Of a stretch of DNA of 64,000 nt, positions 32,993 through 37,645 are shown piece after piece. The DNA is from Veillonella seminalis (GTDB taxonomy: Bacteria > Bacillota > Negativicutes > Veillonellales > Veillonellaceae): positions 62,001 through 126,000 of the forward strand of contig NZ_RQUZ01000006.1 of the NCBI RefSeq assembly GCF_003992065.1, read 5' to 3'. Below the pieces are notes generated by a model. It made no database searches. It had not been told where the DNA came from and saw only the letters and a list, made by a program, of their open reading frames with translations. Each line of letters begins with the position of its first letter. Within the stretch, counting starts at the first letter, position 1. A program made the translations under genes and the position numbers.

Positions 32993-33007
32993 CAAATTTG
33001 AAATTTG
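32993..33007. promoter_or_regulatory. 15-bp dyad in thioredoxin leader
   Basis: CAAATTTGAAATTTG is a perfect 7-1-7 inverted repeat lying 10 nt before the ribosome-binding site AGGAGG of trxA. It could be an operator downstream of the promoter or a weak RNA hairpin; AT-rich chance occurrence is possible. Confidence 0.35.
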
Positions 33008-33030
33008 TTGATTTAGGAGGTTATTTAACT

Positions 33031-33351
33031 ATGGCAAATGTAACAGAATTAACAGTAGCAAACTTTAAAGATACCGTGACTTCCAAAGAAGTGGCAATTG
33101 TAGATTTTTGGGCTCCATGGTGCGGTTATTGCGTACGTATGATGCCTATTTTCGAAGCTTTATCCGAAGAATTGGGCGATAAAGTTGTATTCGCTAAAGT
33201 TAACACTGATGAAGTAGTTGAATTAGCTAAAGAATTCAAAATCGAAGTTTTGCCTACATTCGCTATCATTAAAAACGGCGAAGTAGTAGATCGCAAAATC
33301 GGTTACATTCCTCAGAATGAATTGAAAGCAGCTATCGAAGCTCAGTTATAA
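33031..33351 (+). CDS. trxA: Thioredoxin with CGYC active site
   Basis: Small cytoplasmic dithiol-disulfide oxidoreductase, 106 residues, a typical thioredoxin fold. The active site is WCGYC (Cys31-Cys34) instead of the classical WCGPC, and the cis-proline segment VLPTF is near residue 74. ATG 33031 follows TTAGGAGG; the upstream ATG 32998 would place this site inside the gene. A strong terminator follows (33372-33406). The changed dipeptide between the cysteines is expected to alter redox potential, so this may not be the housekeeping thioredoxin. Confidence 0.92.
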   Translation: MANVTELTVANFKDTVTSKEVAIVDFWAPWCGYCVRMMPIFEALSEELGDKVVFAKVNTDEVVELAKEFKIEVLPTFAIIKNGEVVDRKIGYIPQNELKAAIEAQL

Positions 33352-33371
33352 TTTAATAACAAAACTATGCC

Positions 33372-33406
33372 AAAGGCCTTCACGCAAAGCGTGAAGGCCT
33401 TTTTTC
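33372..33406 (+). terminator. Strong intrinsic terminator after trxA
   Basis: AAAGGCCTTCACGC pairs over 14 bp with GCGTGAAGGCCTTT around the loop AAA, followed by a T-run to 33406. The stem is GC-rich and perfect. Confidence 0.92.
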
Positions 33407-33471
33407 TCGCGGAGATATCTTTGCCAAAAACGCACTATCGCGATGACGGTATGATGCACTTTTCTAAAGTG

Positions 33472-33669
33472 AAAAGAAGTCCCCGTAAAGAACCGTTTTA
33501 AGTAATATGGCACTTTCTTTGTTGCTGCATGATAGTCTTGCGTATAAAAAATATATCGCCTCCATAGGGTCTTTTTGCGAAGCAAACCAAGCCTATGGAG
33601 GCGATATATTTTTATATGGCAGTGTAGAAACATGCCATGATGTTTATGCTGCTTGCGGGGACTTCTTTT
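33472..33669. repeat. Large foldback (imperfect ~198-bp inverted repeat) between convergent genes
   Basis: The outer arms are exact over 14 bp (33472-33485 with 33656-33669). The inner arms are exact over 22 bp (33547-33568 with 33592-33613) around a 23-nt loop that itself holds TTTGC-GAA-GCAAA. The middle part pairs patchily (ATGGCA and TTTCT blocks). The right arm reaches the thrE stop codon. The A-rich and T-rich flanks of the inner stem would make it a two-way terminator for trxA and thrE, but the size suggests a miniature inverted-repeat element. Confidence 0.75.
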
Positions 33670-35105
33670 TATTCCGAAAGCGACTTCTGCCGTTCGCGAA
33701 GCGCTTTTTGCAAAGAAATCTCCTTTTTTCTATCCAAATAACTTCTTGCAATAATATGTGCAATGGCTACGCCGATGGCGATACAGATGATGGTGAGTTC
33801 GCCGGTAATCCCACTGCGCAAGGCGAAGAGCAAATTATCCGGTGTGAGCTGATTAATAGTAAGCAGACCGAATAAGAAACGGTATAATAATACGCCCGGG
33901 ATTAAAGGAATGACGGCCGGAATAGACAGAATCAACGGAGCCGTCCGCAAGAGTTTGTATGTTTTAAGCGCCAATAAACCGATGATGGCAGAAGCTACAA
34001 AGCTGGCACCTACAAGCGTAAAACCAAAATCAACGATGAGTATGTTGCGGGTAATAACACTGATGGTACCGCCTAATGCCGTGACCCATAGTAAACGATA
34101 CGGTGTATTGAAAATCATAGCGAAGCATACAGCCCCGACGGCAGCGGCTATCGCTTGAATCGGCGTTACCACAACCGGGGTAATATTGAGGTGGGTAAAG
34201 GTGGAGACATGGTCGAAATAGAGCGACATGGCGATACCCACGGACATGCTGCTTACAATCAGTAAAGTGTGCATGGCACGCGTCATACCGGATACGATAT
34301 GGTTATTAATCATATCATCCACCGCATTGATCAGCGGCACACCGGGGATTAAAAAGAGGGTACAACTGACCATGGCATATATAATAGTGCCGTATTCAAA
34401 GGTTGTATTAATCAGATTGGCTGTAAAAGTAGCGGCAAAAGAGGCGGCTACTACACCAAAATAAAAATTGATTTGATAGTGATGGCAAATGTAGCGGGCA
34501 ATAAAGCCGATAATGGCACATATTACAGTAACTAAAGCGGCTAAAAATGTACCGCCGAATAAAATACTGAAAGCGCCGCAAGCGAAACCGGCCGCAAGGC
34601 CGTGAAAGGCTACCGGGTATTTAGGCGGTGCCTCAGCGATAGTTTTCAGATGAGCTTCAAATTCATCAAGGCTGTAATTTTCGTTGATGGCTTTCCAGGT
34701 TAATTTTGACAATGTAGATAATATTGTCATGTTTACGCCGTGCAACGGCGTTTTACGGAACACGGTGTAAGAGTGTTTTTCATCGTTAATGTTCAGCATT
34801 AATGTCATATAGGTAATATGAATATGAACATATTGAGGCGGAATCCCCATATAAGAGGCGGCGCGCATCATATCACGTTGAATGTGATTGGTGTTGGCGC
34901 CGTTTTGCATAAGTAATTGGCCAAAGCAAAGGAGCAGTTCCATTTTACGGTGGATGGCGACAAACGGTTCACACATAATTTGGTAGTTTGACGGACCGCG
35001 GGAACAGCATTTGTCGTGCTTGTTCTGATGTTGGTGGCTCCGCGAACGTGTGCCGCCGTGACCATGAGTACTATGGCTTGTATGTTGTGTTTTATCAATG
35101 CTCAT
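33669..35105 (-). CDS. thrE: Threonine/serine exporter ThrE, single-chain form
   Basis: Inner-membrane exporter of threonine and serine. The 478 residues join a DUF1212/ThrE N-terminal half (LMQNGANTNHIQRDM near residue 62, then membrane segments) to the C-terminal half of the ThrE_2/DUF3815 type, giving about ten membrane segments in all. The N-terminus is unusual: residues 8-34 contain seven histidines and end in two cysteines, which could bind metal. ATG at 35105 is preceded on this strand by GAAAGGA. It is convergent with trxA, and the spacer holds the foldback at 33472-33669. Confidence 0.88.
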   Translation of the reverse strand: MSIDKTQHTSHSTHGHGGTRSRSHQHQNKHDKCCSRGPSNYQIMCEPFVAIHRKMELLLCFGQLLMQNGANTNHIQRDMMRAASYMGIPPQYVHIHITYMTLMLNINDEKHSYTVFRKTPLHGVNMTILSTLSKLTWKAINENYSLDEFEAHLKTIAEAPPKYPVAFHGLAAGFACGAFSILFGGTFLAALVTVICAIIGFIARYICHHYQINFYFGVVAASFAATFTANLINTTFEYGTIIYAMVSCTLFLIPGVPLINAVDDMINNHIVSGMTRAMHTLLIVSSMSVGIAMSLYFDHVSTFTHLNITPVVVTPIQAIAAAVGAVCFAMIFNTPYRLLWVTALGGTISVITRNILIVDFGFTLVGASFVASAIIGLLALKTYKLLRTAPLILSIPAVIPLIPGVLLYRFLFGLLTINQLTPDNLLFALRSGITGELTIICIAIGVAIAHIIARSYLDRKKEISLQKALRERQKSLSE

Positions 35106-35338
35106 AGAATGAGTCCTTTCTGTTAGTTTCAGTATTTACAGATAATTCTTAATTTGTGTCTATGTATAGTATAGCAGAAGTGTGTCTGTTTTATGACAGA
35201 TATAGATAATTATCATAAATAGGGCAAAAAAATGAAAATCGTATATTGAATTTGCATACTGAAAATAATATTCTTTATTTTTTAATGGCGTTTTGTTCTT
35301 GATTGAGGAATCATTCATGACGAATGAGAAGGGGGCGG

Positions 35339-35445
35339 TGTTAAAAAGTGGGGGTGTTTTTTATATGTTCCGAAAGATTTAAAACAATCGGTGGTAAAAA
35401 GTGGTGTTTTTTCGATTTTTTATTCTGGCGGTGGTGCAAAGTGGA
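35339..35445 (+). promoter_or_regulatory. Distal array of TGG-type MraZ-like boxes
   Basis: Three similar modules, each with two TG-type boxes exactly 10 nt apart: TGTT 35339 and TGGG 35349; TGGT 35392 and TGGT 35402; TGGT 35432 and TGGA 35442. Each module reads like CGGTG-N4/5-AAAGTGG. The last four boxes are in a common 10-nt register. The form combines the E. coli MraZ site (TGGG repeats every 10 nt) with the AAAGTG motif of mycoplasma MraZ. They lie 155-260 bp upstream of the proximal boxes. Confidence 0.6.
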
Positions 35446-35588
35446 GCGATTCAAATATGACTGTTTTATTTTATCGTACATACAGACCAAAAACAGAAAC
35501 AAAAAATCGGTTAAGTGAAGCCAATTTACGATTAAATGTTTGCTTTTAAAAATTTTTCTTTAAATTTTGCTAAATTTTGCAGATTTTA

Positions 35589-35633
35589 TTGTTATTAAGT
35601 GGGGGAATGTGGTAGAATTTACCATATAGTGGT
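35589..35633 (+). promoter_or_regulatory. mraZ promoter with overlapping MraZ-like boxes
   Basis: A -35 TTGTTA (35589-35594) and -10 TAGAAT (35613-35618), 18 bp apart, drive the dcw cluster. TGG boxes start at 35600 (TGGG), 35610 (TGGT) and 35630 (TGGT), i.e. on one helical face at 10-nt register, inside and just after the promoter. MraZ bound here would block RNA polymerase, as known for E. coli MraZ. Confidence 0.65.
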
Positions 35634-35669
35634 AGATAAGATAGGGAACGTGTAAAAGGAGGTGAGACA

Positions 35670-36104
35670 ATGATGTTCATGGGTGAGTTTTCACATACCA
35701 TTGATACGAAGGGACGTTTAATTATTCCGGCAAAATTGCGCGAACAATTAGGGGAGTCCTGTATCATGACCAAGAGCTTCGATAATTGTCTCGCAATTTA
35801 TACGTCCGAAATGTTTGCCGCCAAAGCAGCAGCACTGATGAACCAGCCAAACGGTAAGGCCGGTGTTCGCGGTCTTAAACGTCAGATTTTTGCTAATGCC
35901 AATGAACTGGAATTCGACCGTCAAGGGCGTATTTTGGTACCGGCTACATTGCGCGAATATGCCAAACTGCAGAAAGAGGTTATGGTAATCGGCGTAGCCG
36001 ATCATGTGGAAATCTGGAATCGTGAACATTGGATGGCTTACCAGGAAGATATGGATGACAATATGGAACAATTGTCTGAAAACATGGAAGATTTTTTGCT
36101 GTAA
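35670..36104 (+). CDS. mraZ: Transcriptional regulator MraZ
   Basis: First gene of the division and cell-wall cluster; an AbrB-fold DNA-binding protein forming large rings and repressing its own operon in E. coli. It has 144 residues with the two tandem motifs DTKGRLIIPAKLRE (near 13-26) and DRQGRILVPATLRE (near 83-96), both containing the hallmark DxxGR. The start is ATG 35670 or, by homology to the usual MFMGE N-terminus, ATG 35673; AGGAGGTGA lies upstream. Candidate binding sites are found at 35339-35445 and 35600-35633. Confidence 0.96.
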   Translation: MMFMGEFSHTIDTKGRLIIPAKLREQLGESCIMTKSFDNCLAIYTSEMFAAKAAALMNQPNGKAGVRGLKRQIFANANELEFDRQGRILVPATLREYAKLQKEVMVIGVADHVEIWNREHWMAYQEDMDDNMEQLSENMEDFLL

Positions 36105-36273
36105 GCGTTTTATTTTAAATTGATTTTATAAAGCTAAGCTTGAAAGCTCTTTTAAAAAGATGTTTTAAGAGATTTATTGACGGCTTATTTTTAAGTAATG
36201 CAATACTATAGCGATATAGTGAATGTTTGATTAAGGGTTGAGCATAATTGTGAAAACGGAAAGGAGCGGCCCC

Positions 36274-37206
36274 ATGGAATTTTATCATGTAAGCGTGTTG
36301 CTGAAAGAAACAGTAAACGCCGTTTTAACGAATCCCCATGGGATTTACGTAGATTGCACGCTGGGCGGTGCGGGGCATGCCCATGCGTTAGGTGAGCAAT
36401 TGGCCGCTGACGGTTTACTCATCGGACTCGATCAAGATGAGGTGGCGTTGGCGACCGCGACTGAACGTTTAGCAGATTTAAACTGTCGCGTTATGACGAT
36501 TCCCACCAATTTCAAAGATTTAAAAGCGGCTTTGACGAGTCGGGGCATTACTGAGGTAGACGGATTTATCTTTGATCTCGGCGTATCAAGTTATCAACTT
36601 GATACGGCTGAACGCGGTTTTTCATACATGCAGGACGGTCCGCTGGATATGCGTATGGATATGCAGGGCTCGTTAACGGCAGCCGATGTGGTGAACGGTT
36701 ACAGCGAAGCCGACTTAGTCCGCATTATTCAGGATTATGGCGAAGAGCGTTGGGCAAAACGTATTGCTCAATTTATCGTCACGGCTCGTGAGGATAAACC
36801 GATAACGACTACAGGTGAATTAACCAAGATTATTAAACAAGCTATTCCGGCTGGGGCAAGACGTGAAGGTCCGCATCCGGCAAAACGAACATTCCAAGCT
36901 ATACGCATTGAAGTAAATCAGGAATTGGCTATTTTAAAAGACAGTTTTAAAGATGCTGTGGATTTATTAAAACCGGGCGGTCGCATCGGGGTTATTACAT
37001 TCCACTCATTGGAAGACAGGATTACTAAACAGACTTTCAAAGAGCTGAGTACCGGTTGCATTTGTCCGCCGGAACTGCCGGTTTGCGTATGCCACCATGT
37101 GGCGGTAGTTAAAGCGAGAAATAAAGCGATTGAGCCCGGCAACGAAGAAGTAACGGCAAATCCGCGAGCACGGAGTGCCAAGTTACGCGTGGCCGAGAAG
37201 GTATAG
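36274..37206 (+). CDS. rsmH: 16S rRNA m4C1402 methyltransferase RsmH
   Basis: S-adenosylmethionine-dependent N4-methylation of C1402 in 16S rRNA at the ribosomal P site. It has 310 residues. The SAM motif region is DCTLGGAGHAHAL near residue 26, GFIFDLGVSSYQLD near 100, and the family motif HPAKRTFQAIRIEVN near 208-222. ATG 36274 follows GAAAGGAG and gives the usual start FYHVSVLLKE; the TTG at 36238 lies before that site. About 170 nt of non-coding sequence separates it from mraZ, longer than usual in this cluster. Confidence 0.96.
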   Translation: MEFYHVSVLLKETVNAVLTNPHGIYVDCTLGGAGHAHALGEQLAADGLLIGLDQDEVALATATERLADLNCRVMTIPTNFKDLKAALTSRGITEVDGFIFDLGVSSYQLDTAERGFSYMQDGPLDMRMDMQGSLTAADVVNGYSEADLVRIIQDYGEERWAKRIAQFIVTAREDKPITTTGELTKIIKQAIPAGARREGPHPAKRTFQAIRIEVNQELAILKDSFKDAVDLLKPGGRIGVITFHSLEDRITKQTFKELSTGCICPPELPVCVCHHVAVVKARNKAIEPGNEEVTANPRARSAKLRVAEKV

Positions 37207-37228: not shown

Positions 37229-37645
37229 ATGTTAGCGAGAAAGACAGTCGGCGTAAGGGTTGCACAACCGACGGCGAGACCATATATACCAACACAAACA
37301 CGTCGAGCGAAACAAGTTGGTGTATTCAGTAACGCATCGCCGGAATTGAAACAAATTTTAATGTTATTAGTTATTGCAGGCATTATGGTAGCCGCTATTT
37401 TGGGAGGGCGCGTGGTCAAAGCCGGCGCCGGTTACGAATTGGTAAGCATGCAACGTGAAATGGTACAACTTACCAGAGATAATGAAGAATTGAGTTTGGA
37501 AGTGGCGGAATTAAAATCGCCGACACGAATTCAGCAGATTGCGCAAGACAAATTGGGAATGGTTTTGCCCGATGCTTTTGTGTACAACAGCAAAGGTACT
37601 ACTGTAGAACGTGATGTGAATGTAACACCTCACATCAGGGACTAA
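37229..37645 (+). CDS. ftsL: FtsL-like septum protein
   Basis: A 138-residue bitopic protein: basic cytoplasmic N-terminus (about 1-45), one membrane segment (about 46-66, ILMLLVIAGIMVAAILGG), then an extracytoplasmic coiled coil (about 70-105, QREMVQLTRDNEELSLEVAEL) and a short tail with the FtsL/DivIC-type block IQQIAQDKLGMV. Position between rsmH and murE, where ftsL sits in other bacteria, supports the call, though sequence similarity is intrinsically weak in this family. The next gene is murE, not a division transpeptidase. Confidence 0.82.
   Translation: MLARKTVGVRVAQPTARPYIPTQTRRAKQVGVFSNASPELKQILMLLVIAGIMVAAILGGRVVKAGAGYELVSMQREMVQLTRDNEELSLEVAELKSPTRIQQIAQDKLGMVLPDAFVYNSKGTTVERDVNVTPHIRD

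Follow-up and report, generated by a model that had tools for sequence, protein, structure and literature searches.

Two clusters of boxes of the kind recognized by the regulator MraZ lie upstream of mraZ in Veillonella seminalis: a proximal cluster at the promoter and a distal cluster of paired boxes farther from the gene. Judged by the upstream sequences compared here, the distal module is a trait of the family (Veillonellaceae) and not of the Negativicutes in general. On balance, we lean toward the reading that the distal part serves as an auxiliary MraZ operator that cooperates with the proximal one, plausibly by looping mediated by the MraZ ring. The components of this reading differ in strength: MraZ very probably binds the distal boxes, and the case that it bridges the proximal and distal boxes is evenly balanced.

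MraZ is a repressor of the dcw genes that binds GTG repeats called MraZ boxes (PMC8475190, PMC7761207) and is described as an octameric ring (PMC7761207). The operators of Escherichia coli, mycoplasmas, and Burkholderia consist of GTG boxes of 7 nt with a 3-nt spacer (PMC8475190, PMC7761207).

The window is the whole stretch of DNA analysed, 64,000 nt of contig NZ_RQUZ01000006.1. Within it, mraZ is an open reading frame at 35670–36104 on the plus strand, matching PF02381 in two stretches (E 1.3e-38). Its product retains both DxxGR motifs (DTKGR and DRQGR) and is a sequence relative of the solved MraZ chains; recent MraZ entries in the PDB include 9qlr, 9qlg, 9r4j, 9sx6, and 9sz7. A Methyltransf_5 (MraW) gene (36238–37206) and a DivIC-type gene (37229–37645) follow 3' of mraZ; from their domain content, these 3 genes are the start of a dcw cluster, with mraZ as its first gene. 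MraZ is very widespread: when 119 genomes of the phylum were sampled, 113 had a match. On the other side of mraZ lies a divergent gene for a ThrE-type exporter (33669–35105). In the window, this reversed thrE stands between a thioredoxin gene and mraZ (32998–35105), and a thioredoxin-like gene is found directly 5' of mraZ in several genomes of one genus of the family, g4 (L007, L014, L018, and L045).

We examined the mraZ upstream regions of 98 Negativicutes: 28 from the family (genera g1 to g4), 30 more from the order, and 40 more from the class. The order set used 58 of 60 genomes with a match, leaving out G045 and G049 (a contig end and a fragment); the class set was taken outside the order and spread over families, from 135 genomes with a match. 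In L068, an insertion of roughly 200 nt has displaced the MraZ array, which now lies about 255 nt upstream of mraZ. Because its array sits behind this insertion, the locus was excluded from training and from the distal scan, which leaves 97 loci (28 family and 69 other Negativicutes). A phylum set of 30 loci was reduced to 28 by dropping L140 and L160, for which a wrong start had been found; within it, L145 and L146 give identical hits. Sites were scored with a 20-nt, two-box matrix; its training set was 94 modules of proximal operators, drawn from 47 non-family genera. For distal modules, we scanned from -420 up to 40 nt short of the proximal array, at a threshold of 10 bits.

The likely mraZ promoter spans 35589–35618 on the plus strand and combines TTGTTA, an 18-nt spacer, and the extended -10 TGGTAGAAT. 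It comes from a consensus scan (9/12 with TG) that found 3 sites in the region against 3.3 expected by chance; the candidate is conserved in relatives, and it overlaps the first two proximal boxes. Right after the -10, the sequence TTTACCATATAGTGG (35610–35632) is constant in all 28 family upstreams. Together with the preceding TGGTA, it forms an inverted TGGTA...TACCA where the third MraZ box would be; a scan of viral contigs gave no match to the constant promoter block.

The proximal operator (35596–35632, plus strand) is the best site of the window at 23.4 bits, with TGG at 35600, 35610, and 35630. Its GTG-containing direct repeats keep a 10-nt register and lie at the mraZ promoter. These are the features by which MraZ operators are recognized, and by this likeness the proximal boxes are an ordinary MraZ operator. 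A GTG(G) array in 10-nt register occurs just 5' of mraZ in 97 of the 98 Negativicutes upstreams. The initial annotation had described the proximal boxes as all in 10-nt register. The 3 boxes are indeed in register, but register position 35620 holds TACCATATAG, so that the array has the form 2 + gap + 1. This form is found in all 28 family genomes and in none of the 69 other Negativicutes. Outside the family, 68 of 69 upstreams have at least 3 contiguous boxes, and L033 has two in a row. The lack of a third array box throughout the family and the presence, in most members, of a distal pair are traits that coincide in these sequences, a coincidence confounded by descent.

Three distal modules, all on the plus strand, precede the proximal operator in the window. 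Module 1 (35335–35351) has TGT at 35339 and TGG at 35349, lies 261 nt upstream, and is weak at 4.3 bits. Module 2 (35388–35404; TGG at 35392 and 35402) precedes the first proximal TGG by 208 nt and, at 13.8 bits, is second in the window; module 3 (35428–35444; TGG at 35432 and 35442) precedes it by 168 nt and, at 11.2 bits, is third. These ranks hold over both strands of the window, where the next site, at 34192 (10.7 bits), lies inside thrE. Two of the 3 modules thus share box motif and register with operators outside the family and, by this measure, are clearly of the same kind as MraZ operators. Each distal module of the window has only two boxes, short of the 3 or more contiguous boxes of the usual array; we therefore claim a site built of MraZ boxes, not a complete classical operator. 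The distance of module 2 (208 nt) recurs in L003, and that of module 3 (168 nt) in L002, L003, L005, and L006, with 167 nt in L004.

In pattern searches, the strict pattern GTG-N4-AAAGTGG has 3 matches in the window, which are exactly the 3 distal modules including the weak one, against 0.11 expected; a count of 3 was reached in none of 100 shuffles. With the looser GTGG-N6-GTGG there are 4 matches (3 in the region) against 1.17 expected, and 2 of 100 shuffles reached 4; the A-rich spacer therefore carries much of the signal. Across the 2.25-Mb genome as a whole, GGTGNTNMAAAGTGG occurs 3 times, always in the mraZ upstream region, with 0 for the reversed control; since this pattern is drawn from the boxes themselves, the search tests dispersal only. 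Both strict patterns were written after the boxes had been seen, and the matrix is the independent test.

Against these results, the 9 box positions of the initial annotation all stand, except that the one at 35339 reads TGT rather than TGG. Its proposal of an MraZ operator with a distal array holds for the modules at 35392 and 35432, which match the outside-family matrix, and is weak for 35339. It had also stated that many boxes read AAAGTGG. This applies to only 3 of the 9, namely the second box of each distal module (35349, 35402, and 35442). The view of AAAGTGG as a special fusion of E. coli and mycoplasma boxes does not survive: it is the common form, the box consensus outside the family is AAAGTGGTGAAAAGTGG, and the E. 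coli mraZ operator, to which the outside-family matrix gives 20.9 bits, contains AAAGTGGG.

The distal module is concentrated in the family. A module of at least 10 bits is present in 23 of 28 family genomes (7/7 in g1, 6/6 in g2, 1/1 in g3, and 9/14 in g4), as opposed to 1 of 69 other Negativicutes. Conservation in relatives, which the initial annotation had named as a check, is thus found within the family and fails in 68 of 69 loci beyond it. The Fisher value for this comparison, 2e-16, overstates the contrast because related genomes are not independent. In dinucleotide shuffles of the same stretches, P was below 0.05 in 23 of 28 family loci and in 3 of 69 others, the latter being the chance rate. 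No distal module of 10 bits was found in the 28 other phylum genomes or in E. coli; the highest score in this whole set was 8.2 bits. Among the 9 positive g4 genomes, L013 and L044 have the module merely 72 nt from the proximal array. Five family genomes fall below 10 bits in the standard scan (L007, L018, L045, L046 at 7.1 bits, and L047), and the distal module is therefore not indispensable; in L045, a module appears at 445 nt once the scan is extended. Modules on the opposite strand occur in all 6 genomes of g2 and in L036, the sole case outside the family.

In alignments of the 6 g2 upstreams and of 7 of the 14 g4 upstreams, the module stands out as an island of constant columns amid less conserved sequence; its conservation is less clear-cut in the g1 alignment. 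The gene upstream of mraZ varies among the 14 loci inspected, with gene identities read by eye from open reading frames. It is a divergent thrE-like gene in 4 g1 loci, another divergent gene in g3, a thioredoxin-like or other co-directional gene in g4, and a co-directional gene in g2 and L036. The module is present in most of these loci, so a tie of the distal module to divergent thrE was rejected; in the loci looked at, it is mraZ, and not the adjacent gene, that the module accompanies. In some genomes, the boxes have multiplied. In L003, they are amplified as 24-bp single-box tandem units at about -400 to -290 from mraZ, and likewise in L002; L009 carries tandem two-box units of about 22 bp at about -315 to -220.

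A dispersed repeat was also considered. Across the 28 family genomes, the sequence GTGGNNNAAAGTGG has 22 matches. Ten of these, spread over 9 genomes, are upstream of mraZ, as are both matches of the window genome. It is not enriched genome-wide in the 28 family genomes, where the reversed control is higher (34 + 42 matches); without such enrichment and with matches concentrated at mraZ, the dispersed repeat was rejected.

The spacing between the clusters may follow the helix. Measured from first TGG to first TGG, plus-strand modules lie at 167/168, 187, and 208 nt in g1, 158 in L009, 148 in g3, 136/137 in g4, and 157 in L046; these values exclude secondary modules, which also occur. The distances are near multiples of 10.4–10.5. 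The phasing test took plus-strand modules of 6 bits or more and left out the inverted g2 modules (147–149 nt). With one value per lineage and 10.3–10.6 bp per turn, the vector length is 0.89–0.96 (n = 6, P 0.0004–0.0056), for few independent lineages, collapsed by hand, 2 of the 6 being sister g1 lineages. With all plus-strand modules except the tandem copies of L009, it is 0.72 (n = 15, P 0.0002), and with every plus-strand module counted, it is 0.48 (n = 19, P 0.035). The distal spacing tends to whole helical turns, at P 0.0002–0.035 by the set counted, which is suggestive and not decisive.

We propose the following mechanism. In the mraZ promoter, the proximal boxes cover the -10 and the start region, and MraZ bound there would block RNA polymerase, in keeping with the repression by MraZ established in other bacteria. 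The box pairs farther upstream, one or several and mostly at 136–208 nt, would be an auxiliary operator particular to the family. One ring could place some subunits on the proximal boxes and others on the distal pair, or two rings could do so together; such cooperative binding is the simplest way to read the missing third proximal box and the distal pair jointly. We infer the sign of the distal boxes' effect on expression: closing the DNA loop would raise the local concentration of MraZ and so tighten autorepression of mraZ and the dcw genes. Looping would predict both the near-integral spacing and the inversion of the module in one genus.

Lac, Gal, and Ara are looping repressors with auxiliary operators. 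The family arrangement resembles theirs in its distal site, in its tendency to whole-turn spacing, and in occurring in either orientation; it differs in that MraZ binds direct repeats and in that looping is here a proposal. The MraZ ring also has a fold unlike those repressors, and the purpose of its shape is, to our knowledge, unclear. MraZ heads the division gene cluster, and a kept extra pair, a whole-turn tendency, and one genus with an inverted module would be natural material for the study of a ring joining two DNA sites.

Known MraZ operators offer a second comparison. Work on those of E. coli and mycoplasmas is reportedly due to Eraso (2014) and Fisunov (2016). Matrix scanning of the E. 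coli mraZ upstream gave no distal module (-1.3 bits). The operators of E. coli, mycoplasmas, and Burkholderia have in common with the family GTG boxes in 10-nt register at the mraZ promoter, and the family differs by its 2 + gap + 1 proximal form and its extra distal pair; no distal pair is mentioned for the 3 in the available sections of PMC8475190 and PMC7761207. In the open-licence literature, surveyed by titles and the beginnings of abstracts, no distal MraZ operator or MraZ looping was found, which is weak evidence of absence.

It is less likely that the distal boxes are MraZ sites acting without a loop, either storing and titrating MraZ or seeding promoter binding through local concentration. 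The number of modules varies widely, from one in several genomes to five of at least 6 bits in L009. This variability, the 24-bp single-box repeats of L003, and the variation in spacing to the promoter would all suit such sites; that spacing, however, varies mostly in near whole turns, which titration does not need.

We consider it improbable that mraZ has a second promoter farther upstream for which the distal boxes serve as operator. The usual MraZ operator overlaps a promoter, and dcw clusters often have several promoters, which speaks for this idea. The consensus scan, a weak test, nevertheless gave nothing promoter-like on the plus strand at the window's distal modules, and the g2 module is inverted relative to mraZ.

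More improbable still is that the distal boxes have no function, being a repeat or else remnants of the proximal operator left by inheritance or duplication. The tandem copies of L003 (24 bp) and L009 (22 bp) indicate that boxes duplicate easily, and the module is missing in some species; against this, its columns are constant where the flanks vary, 10-bit modules occur in all 4 family genera and in both orientations, and in the window genome the strict pattern shows no dispersal. Least probable is that the G-rich repeats act as a G-quadruplex or as the site of another regulator: a G-quadruplex is reported in the G-rich mraZ upstream of Staphylococcus aureus, and other bacteria are said to have similar motifs (PMC11796246), but the G-tracts of the modules are mostly GG, the motif fits the MraZ box matrix, g2 has it on the opposite strand, and a search of 35100–35700 against Rfam found nothing up to E 1, a null result on which an RNA element was likewise rejected.

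On the reading that we favour, cooperation of the two clusters through a loop, a LexA-like element would fall inside that loop. In the window, this tentative element, CGATTAAATGTTTG (35529–35542, no strand assigned), lies between the distal and proximal clusters, with two mismatches to CGAACANNTRTTYG. The same element is at -141 in L002 and L003. Sequence of the CGAACATA type lies between the clusters in most family members, and a LexA-like element is at -160 from mraZ in L010, -167 in L046, and -179 in L021; the CGATTAAATGTTTG of the window is placed differently from the g2 and g4 elements. The motif CGAACANNTRTTYG was derived by visual inspection of the upstreams of 14 lexA genes, with the mraZ elements already known. 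With up to two mismatches, it matches in 21 of 28 family genomes (about 1.4 expected) and in 4 of 69 others (about 3.3 expected). The perfect Firmicutes box CGAACN4GTTCG occurs in 10 of 28 family genomes, not above control, and there is no CGAAC in the 180 nt upstream of the window genome's own lexA.

A link between LexA and mraZ has a precedent: LexA of Bacillus subtilis binds in vitro upstream of an mraZ homologue from a gut metagenome (Cornish et al. 2014, PMC3998124). The gut Firmicutes described there and the family share a LexA-like element 5' of mraZ; in the family, by contrast, the element sits between two MraZ clusters. Veillonella is absent from the main text of that paper. As a tentative lead, the element may tie the mraZ switch, and with it the control of division genes, to DNA damage. 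The full scheme is possible and rather doubtful as a whole: the dcw cluster of the family would be under an MraZ-bridged loop, in which different subunits of the ring grip the promoter boxes and a distal pair, of whichever orientation, along one face of the helix. With the LexA site inside the loop, a single nucleoprotein structure would unite autorepression with DNA-damage control. In g2 (L019–L024), the sequence between the clusters contains an inverted repeat, GTTCGATA ... TACGAAC, at about -210 to -175 from mraZ.
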